Positions 3,246 through 15,237 of a stretch of DNA of 32,682 bases are shown piece by piece (the first letter of the stretch is position 1; every line of letters begins with the position of its first letter). The notes below the pieces were generated by a model. The model was not told the DNA's origin. It made no database searches and saw only the letters and a list, made by a program, of their open reading frames with translations. Both the position numbers and the translations under genes were made by a program. The stretch comes from Pseudomonadales bacterium (lineage in GTDB: Bacteria; Pseudomonadota; Gammaproteobacteria; Pseudomonadales; Azotimanducaceae), in assembly GCA_021295895.1 (NCBI GenBank), contig JAGWBM010000016.1:1-32682 (forward strand), read 5' to 3'.

Positions 3246-4211
3246 ATGCGTCCAACCAGATGGACGATGTTGCCGAGTGCCCACCCAGTGATCCCTGTGG
3301 GGATTCTTACGGACAAGGCCTTTCGACCGCATTTGCACCGTTCCTTGGCGCTCTGCCTCGGCATTGCAGCCGCCGGTACGTCCTGGGTCCCCGCACTGGC
3401 CGAAACGACCGTCGACGTGCCGTTGATGCGGGCTGCGGGCCACCCCACCCAACAGGGGTTCGTCCGGGTCACTGCGGTGGAGTCCGGGACGATCGCGATC
3501 AAAGCCTGGAACGACGCAGGCGACGTCGAATCCACGTCCTTGTCCGTGGTGGGCGGCACCACCACCCACTTCAATTCCGATGACCTCGAGTTCGGCAACG
3601 CCGACAAGGGGATCCCTCGCCGCATTGGCTCGGGTTTCGGCGACTCCTATGTCCAACTTACCGCCGACTTCGATTTCGTCGCCACCTCCTATATGCGAAC
3701 CAACGACGGCTTCCTCACCGGGATGGGGAACATCCTCGTTCCCGTCGACGGTGAAGCGTTCGGTACCGCGTGTGTGTACGAAGCGACCATCTTCAATCCG
3801 GCCTCGAACACCAATCAGGTCAGCAGCCTGCGCATCGTCGAACGCGGGGGCTCGGATACGGCGGTCAGCATCTACGGTACCGATGACGATGGGGTTACGT
3901 ACGGCCCCGTGGGGCTCACCGTTGCCGCGAACGGCGCCCGCACGGTCACGTCCCAGCAATTGGAGAACGGCGATCCCGACCTAGACGAAATGCTCGCGGA
4001 TGGCACCGGCAAATGGCGACTCGCCGTCGCCACCGACGGGATGATCGTGGTCATGAACCTGCTGGAGTCACCCACCGGCCATCTCACCAACCTCGGTCCC
4101 GTGGTCCTATCGGCATTCAGCGATGGCGACGATCTCGAGACCCCGCAGGGATGCACGGGAGCACCGCCCCACCGCCTGGTCGCTCAACCGCCCGCAGCGG
4201 ACGTTCGCTAA
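3246..4211 (+). CDS. Exported protein with two copies of an unnamed beta-rich repeat
   Basis: The frame gives up to 321 residues. The start is uncertain: ATG 3246, ATG 3267 or GTG 3297 are all in frame and none has a good ribosome site; GTG 3297 would place the signal peptide (HRSLALCLGIAAAGTSWVPALA) near the N-terminus. Two related modules follow. The first has 'QQGFVRV...TTHFNSDDLEFGNADKGIPRRIGSGFGDSYVQLTADFDFVATSYMRTNDGFLTGM'. The second has 'NQVSSLRIVER...ARTVTSQQLENGD...GTGKWRLAVATDGMIVVMNLLESPTGHLTNL'. Each runs about 120 residues and looks like a beta-sandwich. The same module is familiar from exported gammaproteobacterial proteins, some of them proteases, but its function is unknown to me. 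Only 11 nt separate it from the next gene, so the two are probably co-transcribed with the protease beyond. Confidence 0.75.
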   Translation: MRPTRWTMLPSAHPVIPVGILTDKAFRPHLHRSLALCLGIAAAGTSWVPALAETTVDVPLMRAAGHPTQQGFVRVTAVESGTIAIKAWNDAGDVESTSLSVVGGTTTHFNSDDLEFGNADKGIPRRIGSGFGDSYVQLTADFDFVATSYMRTNDGFLTGMGNILVPVDGEAFGTACVYEATIFNPASNTNQVSSLRIVERGGSDTAVSIYGTDDDGVTYGPVGLTVAANGARTVTSQQLENGDPDLDEMLADGTGKWRLAVATDGMIVVMNLLESPTGHLTNLGPVVLSAFSDGDDLETPQGCTGAPPHRLVAQPPAADVR

Positions 4212-4222
4212 GGAGTTCTTGA

Positions 4223-4756
4223 ATGTCCTTCGAGAGATTACTTCCGGCTTTGACGCTAGTTCTGGCCGCCACGTGGGCGACTGGGCAGGAGCAGAGCACG
4301 GCGCCACGGACAGTCGATACCGCCCGGGGTCCGATGTTGGCACTGCCCCGGCTGGACTCGACGAGTCCCGCGTCGGTGGTCGTCGAAGACGTACGCATCG
4401 AGATGTCCGTGGAAGCGGGGTTCCGCGTATACCGTGCCCACCAGGACGGGCAGACCCGCACGGTCTACGAAGCGGCCGATGGTCCCGCCGGACGGTACGC
4501 CTACGACCCCGTAGAAAGACGATTCGATCGGGTGTCGTCCAGCCTGCGGGTACGGCTTACCGACTACGAGCGCCTGGACGACGTGGTTGCTTCGGCCGGG
4601 GCGTTGCGGGGCAAGAACTACAAGGCCCTCGGGTGGGCACTGCTGCGTCTACGACCCGAGCAAGACCCGGCGACTGTCGCCCGTTCGCTGCTGGAGAATC
4701 CGCTCGTCGTCGGCGCTGAAGTCATGCTTGAGGAGCCCATCCGTGTTCCACAGTAG
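4223..4756 (+). CDS. Exported stand-alone propeptide-like protein, candidate partner of the S8 protease
   Basis: This 177-residue protein starts at an ATG with AAGGAG 8 nt upstream. A signal peptide covers residues 1-21 (LLPALTLVLAATWATGQ). After a low-complexity linker there is a compact domain, 'FRVYRAHQDG...YDPVERRFDRVSSSLRVRLTDYERLDDVVASAGALRGKNYKALGWALLRLRPEQDPATVARSLLENPLVVGAEVMLEEPIRVPQ'. The last ~45 residues (beta-alpha-beta with 'P.VVGAEVMLEEP') resemble the end of I9-type subtilisin propeptides, which act as folding chaperone and inhibitor. The protease 57 nt downstream lacks that segment in front of its catalytic domain. Acting as a propeptide in trans is inference from order and pattern; no such activity can be read directly. 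Confidence 0.7.
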   Translation: MSFERLLPALTLVLAATWATGQEQSTAPRTVDTARGPMLALPRLDSTSPASVVVEDVRIEMSVEAGFRVYRAHQDGQTRTVYEAADGPAGRYAYDPVERRFDRVSSSLRVRLTDYERLDDVVASAGALRGKNYKALGWALLRLRPEQDPATVARSLLENPLVVGAEVMLEEPIRVPQ

Positions 4757-4813: not shown

Positions 4814-6892
4814 GTGATCACATCACTACTCTGTCTGTTTCTCGCCGTGGGTTGCGGCCCGGACGCCAAGCAGTCGATGGCTCCCGACATCCTCGTGTTC
4901 GCCGGCGACGCCCCGGTTCATGAGGAGGGCATCGAGCTTCCGGTCAGGATCCTCAACTGGGGCGCGGTACCGTCGACGGCTACCCCACTGCAGGTCTACA
5001 TCAACGATCGACCGAACTGGTCTGATTCGACCACGAGGACGCTCCTCGACACCGAGATCCCGCCGATCGATCCCAAGTCCTCCATTCGGTTCAACGTCGA
5101 CATCACCCTCGATGAATTCGAGCCCGACACCGACTACTACCTGCTGATGCGGGCCGACGGTCTCGACGGGGAACTCAACACGAGGAACTGGGACTATTGG
5201 GGCTTCTCCCTCGACGAGGAGGGGCGTGTCGTCATGCACTGCGACCTGGAGGCGCCGAACGACGGCCGGGACGGGGCAACCGACCCGCTGTTCGGGGAAC
5301 AGTGGCACCTCGAGAACACCGGCCAGCGAGCCTACGCGAGGACGCCCGCCTCGCCGGGCGAGGACCTCGGAATGACGAACGTCCTGTCGTCGGGAACGCC
5401 GACCGGCGCCGGCGTACGTATCGCTGTCGTCGACACGGGCATGGAGCTATGTCACCCCGACTTGGTCGCAAACGTCGAGCCCTTTGCTTCCCACAACTTC
5501 AATGCCAACGACTGGCACGGCGCCATTGTGGCCGAACCGTTCTTACCTTGGACTCTCGGCGACCACGGCACGTCCGTGGCGGGCACCGCGGCGGCCTCGG
5601 CAAACAACGGGACCGGGGGACGAGGCGTTGCCCCCGACGCGATCCTACGTAGTTACAACATGCTGGCGGCCGTTGAATCCGCCGGGACGTACTACGATTC
5701 CCTAGGCGGCAGCGACACCGACCCGGATTCGAGTGTGGTCGACATCTTCAACATGAGCTTCGGAACCCTGGGCGGGGAGTTCGCCGTCGACCGGGATGAA
5801 GACCGACTGCTCCGCCTGGGCGTCACCAATCTGCGCGGCGGGCGCGGCGCGCTCTACGTGAAGTCCGCGGGGAATGCCTTCAACGCCTGCGGAACCATGC
5901 GCCGTCCCGCCAACGCTCGCATCGGTTGTACCAGTTCCAACAGCGCTTCCTCGCATCACTCCCGATATCTGATCATCGTCGGTGCCTTCGACGCTCAAGG
6001 AACCCGCGCCAGCTACGCCTCCGCGGGCTCCAACCTGTGGGTCAGCGCCCCGGCCGGCGAATTCGGCTCACGATACGGTGCCACCATCACCGCAGACCAA
6101 GTGGGAACGAACCGGGGCTATGACGTACTCCGGAACTACGGCGTCGCCGAAGACGCCGTCAACAATCCCCACGGCAACTACGTGAGCACCTTCAACGGCA
6201 CGTCGGCCGCCGCCCCGAACACCAGTGGCGCCATCGCGCTGCTGCTGGAAGCCGCGCCCGAGCTGACGTGGCGCGACGTCAGGTACATACTCGCCAAGAC
6301 CGCCCGACAGATCGATGCCGACATCGAACCGGTGCAATACGTGGTCGGCGGCACGGTCTACGTCGCGCAACTGCCGTGGACCTCGAACGCCGCCGGCTAC
6401 CACTTCCACAATTGGTATGGATTCGGTGCGGTGGCCGTGGACGATGCCCTGGACCTGGTGGCCAGGCACACCCCGGACAGCCTTGGCGTATTCGTGGAGA
6501 CGGACCTGAACGCGTTCGCCCGGGAGGACATGGTTTCGATTCCGGACGACGACGGGACCGGTGTCGCCCAAACGCTTACCGTCGAGGGCCTCGCCGACAA
6601 CGCCAACATCGAAGCCGTGACCCTGCGCGTCAATATCACGCACCCGCAGACCAACGATCTCGCCATTCACCTCACGTCGCCTTCGGGAACCGAGAGCATC
6701 CTGAACCCCATCTTCAACGATGCCCTGGCGGGGAACGCGGATCTCGACTGGACACTCTTGAGCAACGCCTTCTACGGCGAGTCCCCGAACGGCGACTGGA
6801 CGATACGGGTCGTGGACGCCGCCTCGGAGGACGAGGGCACGCTCAACGGGTGGCGTCTCAGCTTCGCCCTGGGGACGCACCCGGCGTCCTGA
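4814..6892 (+). CDS. Subtilisin-family (S8) serine protease with C-terminal P/homoB domain, probable lipoprotein
   Basis: 692 residues from a GTG at 4814 with AGGGG upstream. The N-terminus (MITSLLCLFLAVGC) ends in a lipobox-like AVGC, so the protein may be lipid-anchored after export. Residues ~25-135 form a CARDB/Ig-like domain ('DILVFAGDAPVHEEGIELPVRILNWG'). The catalytic domain spans ~155-560, with Asp207 (VVDTGM), His251 (GDHGTSVAG), oxyanion Asn354 (SAGN) and Ser464 (FNGTSAAAP). A proprotein-convertase P-domain lies at ~568-690 and ends in 'LNGWRLSFALG'. All triad residues are present, so it should be active. It lacks a normal I9 propeptide; the preceding gene may supply one. Large inserts around the His motif and before Ser are Gly/Asn rich. 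Confidence 0.9.
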   Translation: MITSLLCLFLAVGCGPDAKQSMAPDILVFAGDAPVHEEGIELPVRILNWGAVPSTATPLQVYINDRPNWSDSTTRTLLDTEIPPIDPKSSIRFNVDITLDEFEPDTDYYLLMRADGLDGELNTRNWDYWGFSLDEEGRVVMHCDLEAPNDGRDGATDPLFGEQWHLENTGQRAYARTPASPGEDLGMTNVLSSGTPTGAGVRIAVVDTGMELCHPDLVANVEPFASHNFNANDWHGAIVAEPFLPWTLGDHGTSVAGTAAASANNGTGGRGVAPDAILRSYNMLAAVESAGTYYDSLGGSDTDPDSSVVDIFNMSFGTLGGEFAVDRDEDRLLRLGVTNLRGGRGALYVKSAGNAFNACGTMRRPANARIGCTSSNSASSHHSRYLIIVGAFDAQGTRASYASAGSNLWVSAPAGEFGSRYGATITADQVGTNRGYDVLRNYGVAEDAVNNPHGNYVSTFNGTSAAAPNTSGAIALLLEAAPELTWRDVRYILAKTARQIDADIEPVQYVVGGTVYVAQLPWTSNAAGYHFHNWYGFGAVAVDDALDLVARHTPDSLGVFVETDLNAFAREDMVSIPDDDGTGVAQTLTVEGLADNANIEAVTLRVNITHPQTNDLAIHLTSPSGTESILNPIFNDALAGNADLDWTLLSNAFYGESPNGDWTIRVVDAASEDEGTLNGWRLSFALGTHPAS

Positions 6893-6964
6893 TTGCCCGC
6901 CCGCCTACGGCGTGCCACCACCGCACTTTCCGGTTACGCTCACCCTTGTGTGAAGGGGTACGAC

Positions 6965-7720
6965 ATGCTTAGCGCCGAGGACATCGAGCACTACCACACC
7001 GACGGCTATGTCTCCCCCGACTTCCGGCTTGACGACGCCGTGCTCGACGACATCCGGGTCAATCACGACAGGCTGGTCGCCAAGCATCCGGCGTTCACCG
7101 ACTATTGTCCGGCCGTGCTCGCCTTCGACACCGGCTTCCTGAACATTGCCCGCATCCCCGCGATTCTCGACATGGTCGAGCAACTGATCGGTCCGGACCT
7201 CGCGTTGTGGAACTCAAGCTTCTTTGCCAAGCCGGCACGCGTCGGCACCAAGACGCCGTGGCATCAAGACGGCGAGTATTGGCCGATCCGGCCACTCGCG
7301 ACCTGCTCGGTCTGGATCGCCGTCGACGCGGCCACTACCGACAACGGCTGTCTGCGCGTGATCCCCGGATCGCACCGCCGTCGCACAATCGGCCGGCACG
7401 ACTTCAACGGCGCCGAGGGGCTGAGCCTGCCACTGGAACTCCGCGCCGACGAGTTCGACGAGACGACCGCCCGCGACATCGTGCTCGAAGCCGGGCAGGT
7501 CTCCCTGCACGACATCTTCCTGGTTCATGGCTCGGAGCCCAACCGCTCCGACACGCCCCGGCGCGGCATGACGCTGCGCTACATGCCGACATCGTCGGTC
7601 TACCGAAGAGACCTCGCCGACGGCCGGCGCGGCGGCCCGCTCGCCATGTCGGAGCGCACACTCTATCTCATGAGGGGGATCGACCGGTCAGGGCGGAACG
7701 ACTTCCGCCAGCGATTTTGA
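6965..7720 (+). CDS. Phytanoyl-CoA dioxygenase (PhyH) family 2-oxoglutarate/Fe(II) oxygenase
   Basis: 251 residues from ATG 6965, with AAGGGG about 7 nt upstream; the frame extends further 5' but that part has no family match. The N-terminus 'LSAEDIEHYHTDGYVSPDF' is the usual PhyH opening helix. Iron ligands are seen as His100-x-Asp102 (WHQDGEYW) and His188 (LVHGSEPN), with the 2-oxoglutarate-binding Arg in 'DTPRRGMTLRY' (199-200). 'GCLRVIPGSH' is the family core strand. These enzymes hydroxylate diverse small molecules; the substrate is not predictable here. The 3' end converges on the small lipoprotein gene with 6 nt between stop codons, and no terminator is obvious. Confidence 0.88.
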   Translation: MLSAEDIEHYHTDGYVSPDFRLDDAVLDDIRVNHDRLVAKHPAFTDYCPAVLAFDTGFLNIARIPAILDMVEQLIGPDLALWNSSFFAKPARVGTKTPWHQDGEYWPIRPLATCSVWIAVDAATTDNGCLRVIPGSHRRRTIGRHDFNGAEGLSLPLELRADEFDETTARDIVLEAGQVSLHDIFLVHGSEPNRSDTPRRGMTLRYMPTSSVYRRDLADGRRGGPLAMSERTLYLMRGIDRSGRNDFRQRF

Positions 7721-7726
7721 AACGGT

Positions 7727-8047
7727 TCACTCGCGTCGTCGCGCTGCGCCGAAACGGGACGGGACGAGCCCGTCCCCTAGTTGCAGGACATTTGGTTCCA
7801 AGATCGCGGGGCAACGCCGGTTGACCTCCCGGACAAGGACGGCCAGTTGTCGCTTCATCGGCTGAACTTGCCCGCCCTGCCTGACGTCCGCCTCGAGATC
7901 CGCGAGGTGCTTCATCAAGTCGGCGCACGACATCGTCCGGTAGCCGCCCCCGCCGGATATGCCAACCATCGAACCCCGTCCGGGCGGTTGGTGAGCGCAT
8001 GCCGCCATCGCGACGGCGCAAACAGCGATTACCAAGCGGGCACCCAC
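7727..8047 (-). CDS. Small lipoprotein, last gene of the sigma/VWA operon
   Basis: A GTG at 8047 lies 7 nt after the VIT/VWA stop and gives a short classical lipoprotein signal, GARLVIAVCAVAMAAC; an in-frame ATG at 8086 would overlap the preceding gene by 32 nt and lengthen the leader. The mature part is about 90 residues with 'GGGGYRTMSCADLMKHLADLEADVRQGGQVQPMKRQLAVLVREVNRRCPA', a helical segment with two Cys that could pair. No family was recognised. The final ~10 residues (LGDGLVPSRF) are encoded by a copy of the dispersed palindromic repeat, so the native C-terminus may have been replaced. The position makes it part of the envelope system encoded upstream. Confidence 0.65.
   Translation of the reverse strand: MGARLVIAVCAVAMAACAHQPPGRGSMVGISGGGGYRTMSCADLMKHLADLEADVRQGGQVQPMKRQLAVLVREVNRRCPAILEPNVLQLGDGLVPSRFGAARRRE
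7755..7780 (-). repeat. Half unit of the dispersed palindromic repeat
   Basis: On the minus strand this reads CTAGGGGACGGGCTCGTC then CCGTCCCG, one arm of the element seen complete at 24394-24474 and 32599-32680, with one changed loop base (CTCG for CTTG) and CTAG in place of GTAG. It forms a GGGACGGG/CCCGTCCC stem. It lies within the 3' end of the small lipoprotein frame. Confidence 0.7.
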
Positions 8048-8054
8048 GGTGGCT

Positions 8055-10403
8055 TCAGTCCACGGTGGTCTCGTAGCGAACGCCATCCGGCACCGGCACG
8101 GGCTGACGAACGGTTACCCCGTGCTCGCCGGCGGTCTTCTGGGACGAGTCCACCGCCACGAACGACGTGTAGTTCGACACCAACTGGTAGCGTAGCGCCG
8201 TGTTGCGAATGGCGTCGCCTAGCTCGCCATAGGGATCGCCCGCCCAGGTCAGGCGATTTGCCAAGTCGGCGATGCGTAGGCGGGCCCAGACCTTGGCGAG
8301 GGATGAGCCGGCGTTGCCTTGCTTGTTGTCCGCGGTCAGGAGGGTATGTCGTTCGCCGCCCGATGAACCGAGCACCCGAACCCTCTTCGAATCCCCGGTG
8401 AATTTGCCGGTGACCACCAGCGGCCGGCCCACGAACAGGTCCGGGAGCTTGGGCGGGTAGACCTCGGTCACCGCCATGCCGCCCCAATCGACCGCCACGT
8501 CGGTGAGCGCCGGACGGCTGACGCGGGCGAAGAAGTCGTCCATGACGTCCCGGGCCGAATCGTTCAGGCCGATATACGCGACCACGCCGCGCCCCGCATC
8601 CGCCATGCGCTCCATCAGGTAGCGATTGACCGAGTCGCCGACCCCGAAGCTGAAGACTCGCGATGCACCAATGCGGCTGTGCACCGCCCCGAGGATGTCA
8701 CTCTCATTGCCGATGTAGCCGTCGGTCATGAACGTGACGAAGCGGAACCGCGACGGGTCGTGGGGGAAATTCAACGCCGCATTGACGCCGTTGATCATCC
8801 GCGTCCCGCCGTCTGCCCGGAGCGCAGACACGTAATGGCGCGCCTTTGTCAGGTTTCGCTCGGTGGCCGGCACCGGCTTCGTCCCGAACTGGCTCGCCGC
8901 ATCCGAAAACCGGATGATCTGGAAGGTATCGTTGGGATCGAGCCGGTCCAACGCGACCATGACCGCGTCCTTGGCCTGCTGCAGGGGTTGTCCCTGCATT
9001 GAGCCCGAACAGTCGATGACGAAGACCATCTCCATGGCCTGGCGGGGAACCCGTGTCGAGTCCTTGGGCGGAATGACCATCAGCGTGAAGTAGCCATCCC
9101 CCGTTTCCGGATCCCGATGCGTCAACAGGTTTGACTTCAATCGTTCCCCGGCGACGCGGAAGTCGAGTACGAAGTCCCGGTTGGGGATGGTGGACTCGTT
9201 CTTGAGCTTGACCACCGCCGTGCGGTCGTCGTCGCGGGATACGTCGACGCCGTGGGACGCCTTGACCTCCTCGATCTCGACGCCGGCATCAAGGCGTACG
9301 TTGATGCTGATGTCGTGCCCGGAGCGCTCCTCGGGCCGCAGGTATTCCACCGCCGTACCGGCGGCGTTCGAGCCGCCGCCCCGCGGCACCGCATCGATGG
9401 GGTCGGGGTGTCCAGGGGGGTTGTAGCGGGGACCGACCACGGTGGGGAACACGAACGAATACCAGCCGTCCTCGTAGGCCAAGGTGTGGAAGTAGGTGAT
9501 GTCGATGTCGATGGCCTTGCCGGGCTCGATATTGGCAACTTTCTGTTCGAATATGTTGGGCCGGCGCTGCACTAGGAGGCTTGCGTGGTAGCCCTGCCGG
9601 CGTGCTTCCTTGTAGATGGCCTCCGCCTCTTCCTTCTCGCGCAAAATGCCCCGGATCGTGCGGTTGCCGATCACCATGAGGAACTCGTTGACGGCGGCTT
9701 TTTCCGGCAGCGGGAACACGTACACGGCCTCGATCTTGGCGTCGTAGGGGTTCTGGTACTCCTGCGTGACGTTGACCGTGCCTATGTAACCGCTGATCGC
9801 GGCCTCGACCGCAGTGTGCTTCAAGGGTAGCGGTATATACCGGACGCGATCCGGCTTGCCGGGGGAGGGAAAGCCCACCAACATCGCGCCGGATCCCGGC
9901 GCCTGTCGCATGTCCAGAATGACCCTGTCCGACTCCGGGCTAGACGGCGATGGTTGGGGGACCCGCGAAAACCTCATCAGGCGTCCTCCCGCGGCGGCCT
10001 CAGCATCCCTGAGACGGTCGACCAAGGCATCTACACCTACTTGGTACGTGCGATCGAAGATGACGACATCCGAGGCTTGGGTATTGAACTCGGCGGGTAG
10101 GTCGTCGAAGCTATCCCGCCGGACGCTCGACACGATGACTTTCTCGACCTCCTCCGCCGCGGCCTCGGGAGGCGGCTTCGCGATGATCCAGAGTTCCGGC
10201 TCGGCAGTCGGCGACGAAGCCGCAGTCTTCGGTCTCGGCAGTGGCGGTGCCGCTGGCGGCAGTGGCGCGGTCGCTTCCGGCGCGGGCTCGGGCACCGAAA
10301 CCGTTTCCGTCACGCTGCACGAGACGACCGCGACGGGCACCGCGAATACTAGACCCGTGGCCAGGACACCGAGGGCGACAGTGAAGAGGGGGCGTTTCAT
10401 CAT
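8055..10403 (-). CDS. VIT and von Willebrand factor A domain protein, exported, probable lipoprotein
   Basis: 782 residues. The start ATG overlaps the stop of the cohesin-like gene (ATGA), indicating translational coupling. The N-terminus is a signal segment ending in VVSC (Cys29), a possible lipobox, followed by a Pro/Ala-rich linker (~35-65). A VIT domain spans ~190-325 (IPLPLKHTAVEAAISGYIGTVNVTQEYQNP...). The VWA domain spans ~457-625, with a complete MIDAS: Asp464-Cys-Ser466-Gly-Ser468, Thr534 and Asp561 (MTDGY). A C-terminal beta/helical region follows to 'RYQLVSNYTSFVAVD', as in inter-alpha-trypsin-inhibitor-like bacterial proteins. Such VIT/VWA proteins bind ligands through a divalent cation at the cell surface. 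The extra ~100 residues at 65-180 are not recognised. Confidence 0.9.
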   Translation of the reverse strand: MMKRPLFTVALGVLATGLVFAVPVAVVSCSVTETVSVPEPAPEATAPLPPAAPPLPRPKTAASSPTAEPELWIIAKPPPEAAAEEVEKVIVSSVRRDSFDDLPAEFNTQASDVVIFDRTYQVGVDALVDRLRDAEAAAGGRLMRFSRVPQPSPSSPESDRVILDMRQAPGSGAMLVGFPSPGKPDRVRYIPLPLKHTAVEAAISGYIGTVNVTQEYQNPYDAKIEAVYVFPLPEKAAVNEFLMVIGNRTIRGILREKEEAEAIYKEARRQGYHASLLVQRRPNIFEQKVANIEPGKAIDIDITYFHTLAYEDGWYSFVFPTVVGPRYNPPGHPDPIDAVPRGGGSNAAGTAVEYLRPEERSGHDISINVRLDAGVEIEEVKASHGVDVSRDDDRTAVVKLKNESTIPNRDFVLDFRVAGERLKSNLLTHRDPETGDGYFTLMVIPPKDSTRVPRQAMEMVFVIDCSGSMQGQPLQQAKDAVMVALDRLDPNDTFQIIRFSDAASQFGTKPVPATERNLTKARHYVSALRADGGTRMINGVNAALNFPHDPSRFRFVTFMTDGYIGNESDILGAVHSRIGASRVFSFGVGDSVNRYLMERMADAGRGVVAYIGLNDSARDVMDDFFARVSRPALTDVAVDWGGMAVTEVYPPKLPDLFVGRPLVVTGKFTGDSKRVRVLGSSGGERHTLLTADNKQGNAGSSLAKVWARLRIADLANRLTWAGDPYGELGDAIRNTALRYQLVSNYTSFVAVDSSQKTAGEHGVTVRQPVPVPDGVRYETTVD

Positions 10404-10855
10404 GGTTCTCTCGCTTGCGTTTCTTCCAGGCTTACGGTTGCAGCTTCGATCGGCCGTCCGTCCGCGGTATTGGCCGTTACCAGGTTGAGTTCGAAGTCGG
10501 CATCGCCTTCGAGCATCACGTGAACCGTGGCCACGCGCACGCGGCCCGACGGCAACTTGCTCTCCTCGGCGAGGGAATAGTCGGCGACGACGATGCGATC
10601 GGCATCGCCCCGGGTCACCGCCTCACGGTCGTAGTACGGCGCACGCCGGAACACGTCGCTCCCGCCATTCTCGACGCCCACGACCGTCATCGACGCGTTG
10701 CGGTCCTTCAACTCGAACTGCCAGGCCGCCACGGGTTCGGGGCTGTCCAGGAATACCTCGACCGGTACAAACCGTGCTTTGGCCTGGCCCATCGCGGCCA
10801 CCGAGAGCAAGCCCGCGACCACGAGGGCAAGTGCCCCCCAACCGGGCTTCTTCAT
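10400..10855 (-). CDS. Secreted cohesin-like small protein
   Basis: 151 residues from ATG 10855, which overlaps the preceding stop (ATGA); it overlaps the next gene in the same way. The signal peptide is KKPGWGALALVVAGLLSVAAMGQA. The mature ~125 residues read 'FVPVEVFLDSPEPVAAWQFELKDRNASMTVVGVENGG...RVRVATVHVMLEGDADFELNLVTANTADGRPIEAATVSL'. The pattern of beta-strands, with 'V.VFLDS...AAWQFEL' at the start and 'GRVRVATVHV' in the middle, is that of the cohesin/carbohydrate-binding jelly-roll superfamily. The assignment is by pattern and is not secure. Its neighbour carries a dockerin-like calcium loop, and cohesins are the known partners of dockerins, which strengthens the idea of a pair. Confidence 0.65.
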   Translation of the reverse strand: MKKPGWGALALVVAGLLSVAAMGQAKARFVPVEVFLDSPEPVAAWQFELKDRNASMTVVGVENGGSDVFRRAPYYDREAVTRGDADRIVVADYSLAEESKLPSGRVRVATVHVMLEGDADFELNLVTANTADGRPIEAATVSLEETQAREP

Positions 10856-11250
10856 CGCACGCCTCCCGCATCCAGGGAGACCACGCGCATCGCGAAGGCA
10901 TCGAGATCGGCTTGCGTGACCCCGGGCCGTTCGGCGCGGGCGAGCGCCAGCACGTCGGCGATATCGATTCGACCGGAACGGTTCAGGTCCGCGTATGGCA
11001 CGTCGGCGACGCCGGATGGCGGACCGATCAGCTGCACCGCCAACACGGCCACGAGTGCAACCGAGGCGGCCAATGCCCAACCACCGTGCCGTTTCCACGT
11101 GGCGCGGCGCGTACCGAAGTGCCCGACCGCCATATCCGCCAGGGTCCGATCGATTGTTGCGGTAATGACCGGCGGCGCGGCATCCACGGCCTTCAACGCT
11201 CGGAGTAAGCCCTCGGGAAGTTGCTCGTTGTCGGTATCTTGATCGGGCAC
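10852..11250 (-). CDS. Single-TM protein with periplasmic dockerin-like Ca2+ loop, candidate anti-sigma factor
   Basis: 132 residues. Residues 1-56 are a charged, probably cytoplasmic part (PEGLLRALKAVDAAPPVITATIDRTL...). One transmembrane helix spans 57-75 (WALAASVALVAVLAVQLI). The rest should be periplasmic and contains 'YADLNRSGRIDIADVLALARAE', with Asp88, Asn90, Ser92, Asp96 and Asp99 in the spacing of an EF-hand/dockerin loop. The gene follows the ECF sigma gene by 46 nt and overlaps the cohesin-like gene by 4 nt. Position and topology suggest it is the membrane sensor that holds the sigma factor, but no known anti-sigma fold (ZAS, RskA) is evident. A single dockerin half rather than the usual two repeats is odd. 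Confidence 0.7.
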   Translation of the reverse strand: MPDQDTDNEQLPEGLLRALKAVDAAPPVITATIDRTLADMAVGHFGTRRATWKRHGGWALAASVALVAVLAVQLIGPPSGVADVPYADLNRSGRIDIADVLALARAERPGVTQADLDAFAMRVVSLDAGGVR

Positions 11251-11296
11251 GTTTCGTCTCTCCTTGGCCGTTTAGCGCACGAGCGGCGCGAAAGGT

Positions 11297-11869
11297 TCAT
11301 TCGTCTTTGAGTCTTTTCGCGAAGTCGGATGACTTGAGCCTCGCGATGCCGGTATGCAGCCGGGACTTGACCGTCCCGAGTGGCACCATGAGCACCTCGG
11401 CAATCTCCTGCAGCGACAGGTCGTCCATGAACCGAAGCTGGAGCACCTCTCTCTGGCCTTCGGGTAGGCTCGCGAGCACGCCCCGAATGTCCCCGGTGTC
11501 GACGTCATCCGGCCCCGGAAGGTCGTCTGGCCCGACATCCTCCGCTGTTGGGAAACGTCCCGATTTCCGCAACATCGTGATCGCGGTGTTCTTGGCGATG
11601 GGGTAGAGCAGGGTGGTGAGCTTCGCGGTGAGCTCGATGCCCTCGCCGGTCGGCGGAAAACGGCGCAGCAGGTAGGTGAACGTCTCCTGGAGGACGTCGA
11701 GCGCGGTGTCCGTATCGGACACGTAGCGCAACGCCACGCGCAACACGTAGTCCTTGTGCCGCCCGTAGAGCGTCTCGAAAGCGCCCGCCGCCTCCGCCGC
11801 GTCGCCGCCGTTGCACGCCGCCACCAGAGCTTCGTCGCTGCGCGGATCCTGGCGGCGAAGGCGGGCCAT
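11297..11869 (-). CDS. ECF-type RNA polymerase sigma factor
   Basis: 190 residues with the two ECF regions. Region 2 (~25-95) reads 'AFETLYGRHKDYVLRVALRYVSDTDTALDVLQETFTYLLRR'. Region 4 (~130-180) reads 'LASLPEGQREVLQLRFMDDLSLQEIAEVLMVPLGTVKSRLHTGIARLK', a classical helix-turn-helix for -35 recognition. It is the first gene of a five-gene minus-strand operon ending at 7727. The start at ATG 11869 has no strong ribosome site, and only 16 nt separate it from the truncated dioxygenase fragment upstream, so its promoter probably lies inside that fragment. The presumed job is to turn on envelope genes, including its own operon, when the membrane partner is released. Confidence 0.92.
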   Translation of the reverse strand: MARLRRQDPRSDEALVAACNGGDAAEAAGAFETLYGRHKDYVLRVALRYVSDTDTALDVLQETFTYLLRRFPPTGEGIELTAKLTTLLYPIAKNTAITMLRKSGRFPTAEDVGPDDLPGPDDVDTGDIRGVLASLPEGQREVLQLRFMDDLSLQEIAEVLMVPLGTVKSRLHTGIARLKSSDFAKRLKDE

Positions 11870-11885: not shown

Positions 11886-12188
11886 TCATCCCGTCGACGC
11901 GCATAGCCCCATCTCCGCCTCGAAGGAGATCACTTCGCGGTACTCCCGCTCGCCCCCGGTGGCGCCCTCTCCCGTCACGTGGACGTGTTGCCAGCGATGG
12001 CCGGCGCGCGTCGCGTGGCTGGCGTGGTCCATGTTGACGAAATCCGTTATCGACACGTCCCGCGGCAGGCCCGCCGTCACCCAACGGTCCACTTCGCGCT
12101 TCAATGCCGCCGCTTCCGCCGGTGCGAAGAAGCCGGGAACGATGGTATAACCCGCGTTTTTGTACTGGCTGACGTGGTCGGGCGTCAT
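11886..12188 (-). pseudogene. Truncated PhyH-family dioxygenase, N-terminal fragment
   Basis: From ATG 12188, 'MTPDHVSQYKNAGYTIVPGF' and the following 'FAPAEAAALKREVDRWVTAGLPRD' are a typical PhyH dioxygenase N-terminus. After about residue 55 the sequence no longer looks like the family, and it stops at residue 100, far short of the usual ~270. No HxD...H iron site is present. The tail (EREYREVISFEAEMGLCASTG) may come from the far end of the same or another gene after deletion; I could not identify it. It could still be expressed as a small protein, but it cannot be an oxygenase. Confidence 0.6.
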
Positions 12189-12245
12189 CGTTCGCTCGGT
12201 GTTAGGGCCGGGGAGAGCATAGGCCGAACGTTTGAGGGGGGCATC

Positions 12246-13145
12246 ATGAGCGAGTTCGAGAACAGCGAGTTCCAAGGCAAGGTCGCCGCGGTTACCGGGG
12301 CGGGGGGTGGCATCGGCCGCTGCCATGCCATCGAGTTCGCCAAGCGCGGCGCGAAGGTCGTGGTCAATGACCTCGGCGGTGCCGTGGATGGCTCCGGGGC
12401 CGGGGACGCTGCCGATGCTGTGGTCGCGGAGATACGGGAGCTAGGGGGCGACGCCGTCGCCAACAAGGCTTCCGTCGCCGACGGGAACGGCGCCAAGAGC
12501 ATCATCGACGACGCGATCGAGAACTTCGGCCGCATCGACATCCTGGTGAACAACGCCGGCATCCTCCGTGATCGAACCTTCAAGAACATGACCCTGGACG
12601 AGTTCGACCTGGTCATGCAGGTGCACTTGACCGGCACCGCCTATGTCACGCATGCCGCTTGGCCGCACATGTACGAGCAGAACTACGGTCGCATCGTCTT
12701 CACGAGTTCCGGCTCGGGCATCTTCGGCAACTTCGGCCAGTCCAACTACGGTGCTGCCAAGATGGGCATGCTGGGGCTTGCCAACGTACTCGCCCTCGAG
12801 GGCGCCAACCACAACGTCCGGGTCAACGTGCTCGGTCCCGGGGCCGCGACGCGGATGACCAACACCGTGCCCGGACGCGACGAGGACATCGGCGATCCCG
12901 ACCCCATGCGGCACCCCGCGCTGGTGAGTCCCGCCGTGTTGTTCATGTGCAGCGAGGACGCCCCCAACGGCGCAGTCATCCACGCCTCCGGCGGCAACTA
13001 CAGCCGCAGCGAAGTCTGGGTCAACGACCCGGTGCAACTCGGTGCCGGCGCCACCTACGAGGATCTGCTGGAGCACGTCGACAAGCTGATGGACATGTCG
13101 AACGCACACCCGCGCGCACCCCGCACACCGCGGCCACGACGCTAG
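12246..13145 (+). CDS. Short-chain dehydrogenase/reductase, 17-beta-HSD type 4-like
   Basis: 299 residues from ATG 12246, with GAGGGGGG 5 nt upstream. The Rossmann motif TGAGGGIGR (~17-25) starts the NAD(P)-binding fold, NNAG follows at ~100, and the catalytic Ser-Tyr-Lys set is in 'FTSSGSGIFGNFGQSNYGAAK'. 'VVVNDLGG' after beta-2, with its acidic Asp, favours NAD. The overall pattern (GKVAAVTGAGGGIGR, FKNMTLDEFD, HLTGTAYVTHAAWPHM) is that of the (3R)-hydroxyacyl-CoA dehydrogenase part of MFE-2-like enzymes, suggesting acyl-CoA or steroid substrates. It lies divergent from the dioxygenase fragment and convergent with the TPR gene, so it forms its own transcription unit. Confidence 0.88.
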   Translation: MSEFENSEFQGKVAAVTGAGGGIGRCHAIEFAKRGAKVVVNDLGGAVDGSGAGDAADAVVAEIRELGGDAVANKASVADGNGAKSIIDDAIENFGRIDILVNNAGILRDRTFKNMTLDEFDLVMQVHLTGTAYVTHAAWPHMYEQNYGRIVFTSSGSGIFGNFGQSNYGAAKMGMLGLANVLALEGANHNVRVNVLGPGAATRMTNTVPGRDEDIGDPDPMRHPALVSPAVLFMCSEDAPNGAVIHASGGNYSRSEVWVNDPVQLGAGATYEDLLEHVDKLMDMSNAHPRAPRTPRPRR

Positions 13146-13158
13146 CCCTACGACGAGA

Positions 13159-13896
13159 TCAGTCGCCGCGCGCCGACTTCATCCAATCAAGCAGGTTGGT
13201 CCACTCTTCCTCAACGCGCATACCGCGCTCGTCGGCGAGCCGGATGGCCGCCTCGAGGCTCTCGATGCCGCCCTCCACGTCGTTGAGTTCGAGTTGGATT
13301 CGGGATAGGAAGAGGTAGTCCTTGGGCACCTTGTGCGGTGCCGCGCCCATCCACGTTTGCATCGAGGACAGCGCCCGACGAAACCACTGTTCCGCGTCTT
13401 CGTCCCATAGCTGCTCGTCACCCCGCGCGTAGTAGAGCCGCGCCAGCTCGCGTCGTGCCGTCAGGCCGATCGGCTCGTCAACCGCAGGTGTGTTGAGTAG
13501 GCGTTCGTAGTGCCGGATCGCCTTCTCGGGTTGATTGGATTGGCTGTAGGCAAACGCCAGCGTGCTTTGCACGTGGGCGAAATCCCCGGCACTTCTGCCC
13601 ACGCGTAGGCTCTCGAGCAACGCCGCACCCTCCTTGTACTTCCCCTTCTCGATGAATTCGTCGACGCGTCGTAGTTTCCTGCGCAACGTTCGTTCGCGCC
13701 GCTCATCGGGCGTCAGCGTCTTGAACTTTCGGATATCCGGCGCGGTTACGTCGGCACGAGGTCGGCCGAGCAATTCGTCCCGCTCTCGCAGTTCGTCGAC
13801 CCCCCGAGGCGGTCGCTGTTGACCAAGGCCCGGCTCGGCGAGGATGCCGAAAAGCAAAACGACCGCGATGACAGTCGAGATCCGTCGGGCACTCAT
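13159..13896 (-). CDS. Exported TPR protein, last gene of the BlaI/M56/TonB cluster
   Basis: 245 residues with a signal peptide (RISTVIAVVLLFGILAEPGLGQ). A charged segment (~27-75) is followed by helical repeats: 'RVDEFIEKGKYKEGAALLESLR', 'VQSTLAFAYSQSNQPEKAIRHYERLL', 'ARRELARLYYARGDEQLWDEDAEQWFRRAL', 'DYLFLSRIQLELNDVEGGIESLEAAIRLA'. These have TPR spacing and the W-x-Y/A-x-A flavour. It resembles the upstream TPR lipoprotein in both repeats and its ending ('EEWTNLLDWMKS' against 'EAWTRLLDYMRS'), so the two are paralogues. They probably form a periplasmic scaffold with the TonB-like proteins. The gap to the upstream gene is 47 nt. Confidence 0.8.
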   Translation of the reverse strand: MSARRISTVIAVVLLFGILAEPGLGQQRPPRGVDELRERDELLGRPRADVTAPDIRKFKTLTPDERRERTLRRKLRRVDEFIEKGKYKEGAALLESLRVGRSAGDFAHVQSTLAFAYSQSNQPEKAIRHYERLLNTPAVDEPIGLTARRELARLYYARGDEQLWDEDAEQWFRRALSSMQTWMGAAPHKVPKDYLFLSRIQLELNDVEGGIESLEAAIRLADERGMRVEEEWTNLLDWMKSARGD

Positions 13897-13943
13897 GCTC
13901 CGTTCCCCGTTCGAGGCGCCACCAGACCAACAGTATCACATCG

Positions 13944-14636
13944 CTATGCCGCGCCGGCATCGACACTTGACCGCATGTAGTCCAGCAACCGGGTCCACGC
14001 CTCCTTGACAGGAATGTCCCGTTTCCCGGCAAGACGGATGGCGGTCTCCACGCTCTCGATGCCGGCTTCGTAGTCCGCCAATTGATAGTGAACCTGGGCG
14101 AGAACGTAGTACGCACTCGGGTCCGGATCTTCCGCCAGGGCCATGTGCGAATTCATGGCCGAGAGCGCCCGCCGGTACGAATCCGTTCTTTGTTCCCCGG
14201 CGTGCGCTTGGGCCCTATCGACATGGAGCGATGCCAGCGTGCGATGGGTCATCGACTCGGCTTCCACCGAGATGAACGGTGCCTGTTCGAGTACCTTTTC
14301 GTGCTGCTCGATCGACTTCGTGGGCTGATCGAGCTGCCAGTGAACGTACGCCAACAGCCTGTGCATCTGAGCGACTTCGTTGCGGTTGTAGCGATCTGAT
14401 CGCGAAAGGAGCGATTCCAATTCCGTTCTACCCTCCCCGTATCGCTTCGACACGATGAGCTTCTGGACATCCTGCAGCTTCTTCCAGGTCGCGTGATGGA
14501 TATGCGGGACTTGCCGCGGCTGCGCCGCCTTCGCTTGACCCGTCGCAAACCCCCGGGTCTCGAAGCTGCTGCATGCGCCACCCAGCACGACCGCGGCAAT
14601 GGCGGCGCCAATCCAGCAAATCCTCTGAGCCGCCAT
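13944..14636 (-). CDS. TPR lipoprotein of the BlaI/M56/TonB cluster
   Basis: 230 residues from ATG 14636, preceded by GGAGG and overlapping the stop region of the TonB-like gene by a frame-shifted step, so translation is likely coupled. The signal ends in a lipobox LGGAC (WIGAAIAAVVLGGAC). The mature part has TPR-type helical pairs: 'DVQKLIVSKRYGEGRTELESLL', 'MHRLLAYVHWQLDQPTKSIEQHEKVLEQ', 'AYYVLAQVHYQLADYEAGIESVETAIRLA'. It is paralogous to the following gene. Acting as an adaptor for the TonB-like proteins is inferred from operon position only. Confidence 0.8.
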   Translation of the reverse strand: MAAQRICWIGAAIAAVVLGGACSSFETRGFATGQAKAAQPRQVPHIHHATWKKLQDVQKLIVSKRYGEGRTELESLLSRSDRYNRNEVAQMHRLLAYVHWQLDQPTKSIEQHEKVLEQAPFISVEAESMTHRTLASLHVDRAQAHAGEQRTDSYRRALSAMNSHMALAEDPDPSAYYVLAQVHYQLADYEAGIESVETAIRLAGKRDIPVKEAWTRLLDYMRSSVDAGAA

Positions 14637-14640
14637 TGAC

Positions 14641-15237
14641 CTAGTCCTCCATCTCGAAAACAACCCGGGTGCGGACACCGGAAACCGCCACGGGTTTACC
14701 ACCGGTCACCTTCGGCTTGTACTTGAACTTCAAGACGGCGCTCAGCGCGGCCCGTTCGAAGAAACCCGGCGGGTCCGCGACGAGCACGACGGGATTCCGT
14801 ACCGCACCGGTGGCCGTTACGACGAACTCCACGAGGACGTAGCCCTCGATGCCCCGCGTGAGTGCCCGCCTCGGGTAGATCGGCTGAACCCGGACGATGG
14901 GCAGGTAGGTGCCATCGTCGATGTAGCGATCGAAGAAGCCTTCTCCACCTGGCGGCGTTGGTTCCGGTGGGTCCCCGCCAATCCTCGGGCCACCAATATC
15001 GGGGTCGGGCGGCGGCAGTGGCGGTGGCTGTTCGTCCGGCAGGGGCGGCGGTTCCGGTTTGGGTGGGTCGAGGACGATGTCCAGCTCCTCCACCAGGCGG
15101 ACGAAGTCGAGCACCTCGCCCGTCACGCCGGAATCCTCCGCGGGCATCGGGTCGGCAATGACCGAACGCATCAGCATCAACAGTCCAAAGGTCGCCACGG
15201 TGCCGAGCAAAACGGCGGATATGTATCGAAACAGCAT
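14641..15237 (-). CDS. TonB-like energy-transducer protein, Pro-rich
   Basis: 198 residues from ATG 15237 with GAGAGGAGAG upstream. One N-terminal transmembrane anchor (YISAVLLGTVATFGLLMLM) is followed by an acidic segment, a Pro-rich spacer (PPKPEPPPLPDEQPPPLPPP) and a TonB C-terminal domain: 'PIVRVQPIYPRRALTRGIEGYVLVEFVVTATGAVRNPVVLVADPPGFFERAALSAVLKFKYKP'. This is the full TonB layout of anchor, periplasm-spanning Pro region and receptor-binding domain. No exbB or exbD lies nearby, so it must borrow them, or it works as a scaffold in the M56 pathway. Its C-terminal domain is clearly related to those of the two genes upstream. Confidence 0.85.
   Translation of the reverse strand: MLFRYISAVLLGTVATFGLLMLMRSVIADPMPAEDSGVTGEVLDFVRLVEELDIVLDPPKPEPPPLPDEQPPPLPPPDPDIGGPRIGGDPPEPTPPGGEGFFDRYIDDGTYLPIVRVQPIYPRRALTRGIEGYVLVEFVVTATGAVRNPVVLVADPPGFFERAALSAVLKFKYKPKVTGGKPVAVSGVRTRVVFEMED

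Follow-up and report, generated by a model that had tools for sequence, protein, structure and literature searches.

A conserved gene cassette with a dockerin-like membrane protein and a cohesin-fold protein between an ECF sigma factor and a VIT/VWA lipoprotein, and its possible role in trans-envelope signalling

We describe a conserved four-gene cassette in a Pseudomonadales genome (contig JAGWBM010000016.1, positions 1 to 32,682; this entire stretch of 32,682 nucleotides is hereafter the window, which is contig 61 of a 3.39 Mb genome that is 92% complete). The cassette encodes, in this order, an extracytoplasmic function (ECF) sigma factor, a protein with one predicted transmembrane (TM) segment and a dockerin-like calcium loop, a secreted protein with a predicted cohesin fold, and a lipoprotein with VIT and VWA domains. 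We consider this cassette to be, probably, a trans-envelope ECF signalling system. The genes are linked in about 35 loci across two phyla, in most of them with all four in the same order and, because of this recurrence, the linkage is far beyond chance. Cohesin and dockerin are the glue of cellulosomes, and both are also present in many bacteria that have no cellulosome, where their purpose is a long-standing question. Their position in a conserved operon, with an ECF sigma gene on one side and a lipoprotein gene on the other, provides a testable role for the pair, in signal transduction, and suggests that the Velcro-like pair of the cellulosome is used here to relay a signal to gene expression.

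A sequence-only reading of the window had described an operon of five same-strand genes with ATGA overlaps, and the positions and overlaps of the five minus-strand open reading frames (ORFs), from 11869 down to 7727, were verified. The sigma and dockerin-like genes are 46 bp apart, the dockerin/cohesin and cohesin/VWA junctions each consist of a 4-base ATGA overlap, and the VWA gene shares 32 bp with the terminal ORF. The features are as follows.

11297..11869, minus strand: ECF sigma factor, 190 aa, with region 2 and region 4 (Pfam, NCBIfam, orthologues)
10852..11250, minus strand: putative one-TM anti-sigma factor with a periplasmic single-loop dockerin, 132 aa, GTG start (homology)
11023..11082, minus strand: predicted TM segment, residues ~57-76 of the dockerin-like protein (hydrophobic stretch)
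10954..10989, minus strand: calcium-loop codons 88-99, DLNRSGRIDIAD, the retained first dockerin loop (sequence, conservation)
10400..10855, minus strand: secreted cohesin-fold protein, 151 aa, with an N-terminal signal peptide (AlphaFold2, Foldseek, VIA-align)
8055..10403, minus strand: VIT/VWA lipoprotein, 782 aa, with lipobox Cys29, VIT at 194-304 and VWA at 458-607 with a metal ion-dependent adhesion site (MIDAS)
10125..10145, minus strand: degenerate TonB-box-like motif EKVIVSS, residues 87-93 of the VWA lipoprotein (sequence)
7727..8086, minus strand: small putative lipoprotein, 119 aa, accessory and lineage-restricted (relatives only in loci L002 and L013)

Linkage and distribution of the cassette

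The sigma protein consists of regions 2 and 4 only (Pfam Sigma70_r4, 9.5e-16; Sigma70_r2, 1.3e-9) and scores above the NCBIfam sigma70-ECF cut-off; in almost every related locus, an orthologue immediately precedes the dockerin gene. When genome contigs were searched at the protein level, 13 loci in all were obtained, from metagenome-assembled genomes of Gammaproteobacteria, several of them Woeseiaceae, and from a single Phycisphaerales one. The order sigma, dockerin-like, cohesin-like, VWA is kept in 20 further gammaproteobacterial loci; the only one that lacks the sigma gene, L005, is on a contig that ends before it. The same order is found in most of the 15 Planctomycetota loci; in both groups, neighbouring genes mostly overlap by 1-4 bases. 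Among the Planctomycetota loci, L014 holds all four genes, the dockerin gene having been recovered by reading the frame; the exceptions include L055, L064 and L065, which are located near contig ends, and L061, in which the sigma gene is about 1.2 kb distant. Thus, the association of these genes that the sequence-only reading had proposed is conserved in other genomes.

Whole genomes were searched for the cohesin family, and the flanks of the loci found again held the cassette. The cohesin family occurs in 2 of the 369 genomes sampled from the class, 2 of 61 genomes of the window's own family, 14 of 107 genomes of a family with contigs that match the loci in Woeseiaceae, and 15 of 294 Planctomycetota genomes.

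The fifth gene did not hold up as part of the conserved set. Relatives of the 119-aa lipoprotein gene are confined to L002 and L013, the loci closest to the window, so that this gene is lineage-specific and was rejected as a core member. In the Woeseiaceae loci, the slot that it occupies is taken by an unrelated, conserved lipoprotein without a Pfam match (L006, 6837-7646). Distant relatives of the latter were seen in two Planctomycetota loci, L055 and L062, and the L055 copy lies between the cohesin and VWA genes.

The dockerin-like and cohesin-fold proteins

The sequence-only reading pointed to a 12-residue calcium loop at residues 88-99 of the 132-aa protein, and this loop was found; its residues D88, S92, G93, I97, A98 and D99 are invariant in 13 gammaproteobacterial loci. 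The description of the protein as dockerin-like stands for the family, and for the window protein it stands in a reduced form. The match to Dockerin_1 (PF00404) covers one loop and is sub-threshold (E = 0.032; 14.9 bits against a cut-off of 22.9). Under the type I definition, two calcium F-hand loops and a score above the cut-off, the window protein fails; it is therefore, judging from homology, a one-loop descendant of a dockerin. The six orthologues from Planctomycetota that were scanned individually pass the same test. In the family as a whole, 26 of 33 members reach E ≤ 1 against Dockerin_1, several of them above the cut-off (best 1.4e-9), and when the family profile was compared with the sequences in the PDB, dockerins ranked first (best E = 4.5e-6). 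All gammaproteobacterial members but one carry a single loop close to DxDxSGxIDIAD. Two loops are present in Planctomycetota loci L014, L055-L061, L063, L064 and L066, which show the origin of the gammaproteobacterial single loop and which the sequence-only reading could not see; in L062, L067 and L068, it is the first loop that was lost instead.

The one-TM topology with a cytoplasmic N-terminal domain was read from the sequence, and the position of the TM segment is conserved in the family alignment. The N-terminus that precedes it is conserved as well (L11, L15, L19, I29, D34, R35, F45). No Pfam anti-sigma domain matched the window protein. In a single locus, L064, the initial part of the dockerin protein contains HVDRCAEC, a case of HxxxCxxC, which is the signature of zinc anti-sigma factors; the zf-HC2 match of this protein is below the Pfam cut-off.

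The 151-aa protein has no Pfam match, and its likeness to cohesins, which the sequence-only reading had proposed, was borne out by structure prediction. The AlphaFold2 model, built from 14 sequences, has a mean pLDDT (predicted local distance difference test) of 86.5, with values above 93 over most of the core. A Foldseek search of the PDB returned cohesins as the first 21 matches, all with probability 1.00, although only one had E < 0.001. In the VIA-align comparison, Z reached 9.3, a size that is possible for common folds, and 42 cohesin entries preceded the first entry of another fold (Z = 6.8); such an unbroken run of cohesins would not be expected of a generic beta sandwich. We therefore predict with confidence that the 151-aa protein has the cohesin jelly-roll fold. 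The sequence test for cohesins failed: PF00963 matched one of 35 family members (E = 0.075) and not the window protein, and the family sequence profile retrieved no cohesin from the PDB, so that only the structure comparison did.

The two proteins also occur as a gene fusion. In L059, dockerin and cohesin are encoded in a single 265-aa open frame, with Dockerin_1 at 83-127 and the cohesin, which lacks a signal peptide of its own, directly following; therefore, both domains must be on one side of the membrane, within a single polypeptide. Another fusion of this kind, in a more degenerate state, is possible in L065. The window's genome has one member of the cohesin family and the 132-aa protein as its sole dockerin-like match. 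These observations suggest that the cohesin-fold protein may dock on the dockerin of the membrane protein.

The VIT/VWA lipoprotein and its TonB-box-like motif

The 782-aa protein matches Pfam VIT (1.5e-33) and VWA_3 (2.3e-18), is encoded by a single-copy gene in the window's genome and, in agreement with the sequence-only reading, has a complete MIDAS (DxSxS, GGT, TDG). A lipobox is present in most cassette VWA proteins and the MIDAS in nearly all. The linker between lipobox and VIT is weakly conserved apart from a TonB-box-like motif (e.g. EEIVVTG), which escaped the sequence-only reading and is new here. It occurs in 16 of 21 gammaproteobacterial lipoproteins, with 0.04 expected from shuffles, although these are related sequences and hence not 16 independent events; most gammaproteobacterial orthologues have clear EE[IV]VVTG forms. 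The motif was found in none of the 14 Planctomycetota VWA members and was not seen in other TIGR03788-family proteins of the class.

The form of the motif is that of the TonB box of TonB-dependent receptors in the window's genome, which has 30 plug domains. When these 30 plug-bearing loci were checked, a loose TonB-box motif was present on either strand in 18, and in the frame of the plug in only 9. Over 15 of 15 residues, TGSFIRRDNFDLPSP, the L002 linker is identical to a TonB-dependent receptor of the window's genome (L111), a hint that sequence has moved between receptors and lipoproteins. A plug-domain remnant behind the motif was considered and rejected: neither the N-terminal regions of three orthologues nor the window protein, which matched VIT and VWA, had a Pfam Plug match. 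Going by this likeness, the motif possibly couples the lipoprotein to TonB in the gammaproteobacterial branch, which would extend the reach of TonB from receptors to a lipoprotein.

The VWA protein is related to the TIGR03788 sortase targets, with which it shares the VIT and VWA architecture, and the match of 500.3 bits could suggest that it is itself a sortase substrate in a variant proteobacterial sortase system. This score, however, is below the equivalog cut-off of 551.65. Unlike most other relatives in the TIGR03788 family, which carry C-terminal sorting signals, the window protein has no detected C-terminal sorting signal or TM segment, and no sortase was found in the window's genome, where the missing 8% could still hold one. 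In the VWA tree, which was built by a quick method with a midpoint root, so that only high-support forks are usable, the cassette proteins are separate from the sortase targets, and one genome, G167, carries both types side by side. With no sorting signal, no sortase, a separate clade and both kinds in one genome, we rejected this explanation as extremely improbable. The cassette VWA proteins differ from the sortase targets also in their lipid anchor and in the TonB-box-like motif. Elsewhere, in L128 (plus strand, 3885-4497), an ECF sigma gene (E = 1.2e-18 to the sigma profile) lies near a TIGR03788 VWA gene of another family, and no dockerin or cohesin match was found near that VWA gene.

In the same tree, the cassette members from Gammaproteobacteria group as a single clade with full support, whereas those from Planctomycetota, among which it lies, are paraphyletic. 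The simplest reading would be one transfer from Planctomycetota to Gammaproteobacteria, after which the second dockerin loop was lost and the TonB-box-like motif was acquired.

Proposed mechanism, competing explanations and genomic context

The sequence-only reading had proposed a surface-sensing system in which docking controls sigma release, and the present results support this in part. By analogy with the ECF pairs already known, we propose that the one-TM protein would hold its sigma factor at the inner membrane through its cytoplasmic N-terminus, and that the secreted cohesin-fold protein would bind the periplasmic dockerin of the same protein. The VIT/VWA lipoprotein, presumably anchored in the outer membrane, would be the sensing or force-bearing part that governs the docked state, and either docking or undocking would alter the grip on sigma and hence transcription of the regulon. 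In the gammaproteobacterial branch, the TonB-box-like sequence between the lipid anchor and VIT would probably couple the lipoprotein to the TonB motor. More tentatively, at somewhat less than an even chance, the cohesin-dockerin pair could be a regulated gene-control switch in which docking of the cohesin on the membrane partner determines the activity of sigma and the dockerin doubles as a calcium-dependent joint, with loops lost differently by lineage, and the TonB motor of the gammaproteobacterial branch pulls on, or reports through, this joint via the lipoprotein.

The main competing explanation is a structural tether without signalling, in which the cohesin ties the VWA lipoprotein to the membrane dockerin between the two membranes, the dockerin protein is an anchor, and sigma merely drives the operon of a surface-assembly cassette. 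The relationship of the VWA protein to the TIGR03788 surface proteins and the long TM-to-dockerin linkers of several Planctomycetota members would fit this arrangement and, to our knowledge, the characterised cohesin-dockerin pairs are structural. A mere anchor, however, does not readily account for the conserved N-terminus before the TM segment, the position of the sigma gene directly upstream in nearly all loci, or the HxxxCxxC at the N-terminal end of the L064 protein, and we regard the tether as unlikely. It is decidedly improbable, in our estimate, that the partner of the cohesin is the VWA protein or some external ligand and that the dockerin has another partner, the two folds being together by descent only. 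There are only seven invariant columns among the 35 cohesin-fold proteins, the cohesin persisted when the second dockerin loop was lost, and Planctomycetota have further cohesin and dockerin modules (PMC6461901); the in-frame fusion in L059 and the presence of one dockerin-like match and one cohesin of the family in the window's genome, however, argue for a pair.

Several observations weigh against the signalling mechanism that we prefer. In L058, a different gene is in the place of sigma and no sigma gene is adjacent, and a simple bipartite scan of 31 regions upstream of sigma detected no shared promoter motif above shuffles. Classical dockerins have two loops, whereas the gammaproteobacterial member has one, and in one gammaproteobacterium, L075, both were lost. 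AlphaFold2 gave only a poor model for the dockerin protein (pLDDT 49), which was discarded. L003, L004 and L012 lack the TonB-box-like motif, the window has it in degenerate form, and the relatedness of the sequences that carry it tempers its count.

The proposed system resembles FecI-FecR-FecA, which comprises an ECF sigma factor, a one-TM regulator and a TonB-dependent outer-membrane transducer, in that an ECF sigma gene adjoins that of a one-TM partner and the gammaproteobacterial lipoprotein has a TonB-box-like motif. Unlike that system, the cassette has no TonB-dependent receptor or STN domain; the periplasmic role falls to the dockerin together with the cohesin-fold protein, and a VIT/VWA lipoprotein is the outer partner. 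SigI-RsgI, through which cellulosome-forming clostridia sense biomass, likewise combines an alternative sigma factor and a membrane anti-sigma factor having an extracellular binding module with a cohesin-dockerin setting, but RsgI senses polysaccharide via carbohydrate-binding modules, whereas here the anti-sigma-like protein itself bears the dockerin. The cohesin fold and the dockerin calcium loops are shared with cellulosomal and non-cellulosomal pairs, including the planctosome, a cohesin-dockerin complex proposed to degrade peptides in freshwater Planctomycetota (PMC6461901). Cellulosomes and the proposed planctosome assemble enzymes, whereas the cassette pair is on no enzyme and is encoded inside a sigma factor operon. 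Proton-motor-linked vWA proteins have been proposed as force transducers (PMC12204202), and the cassette VWA protein, too, is possibly tied to a proton-driven envelope motor; those proteins, however, are in the inner membrane and their genes adjoin TolQ/TolR-like genes, whereas this one is a lipoprotein with a TonB-box-like motif. Our literature search returned no account joining these parts, although the main ECF classification papers and the work of Peer et al. on non-cellulosomal cohesins were outside its reach and could contain a prior mention.

Directly upstream of the sigma gene, a short ORF (11886-12326, minus strand) corresponds to the N-terminal part of a phytanoyl-CoA dioxygenase, with a sub-threshold PhyH match; similar DNA is present in L002 and L013, and this is perhaps a truncated gene. 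On the other side, a PhyH-family dioxygenase gene (6893-7720, plus strand) faces the cassette, next to a gene for a subtilase with a proprotein-convertase P-domain and a lipoprotein-like start (4814-6892, plus strand). Further away, the minus strand at 13159-14702 encodes two neighbouring TPR proteins that resemble each other and begin like exported proteins, perhaps as a result of tandem duplication.

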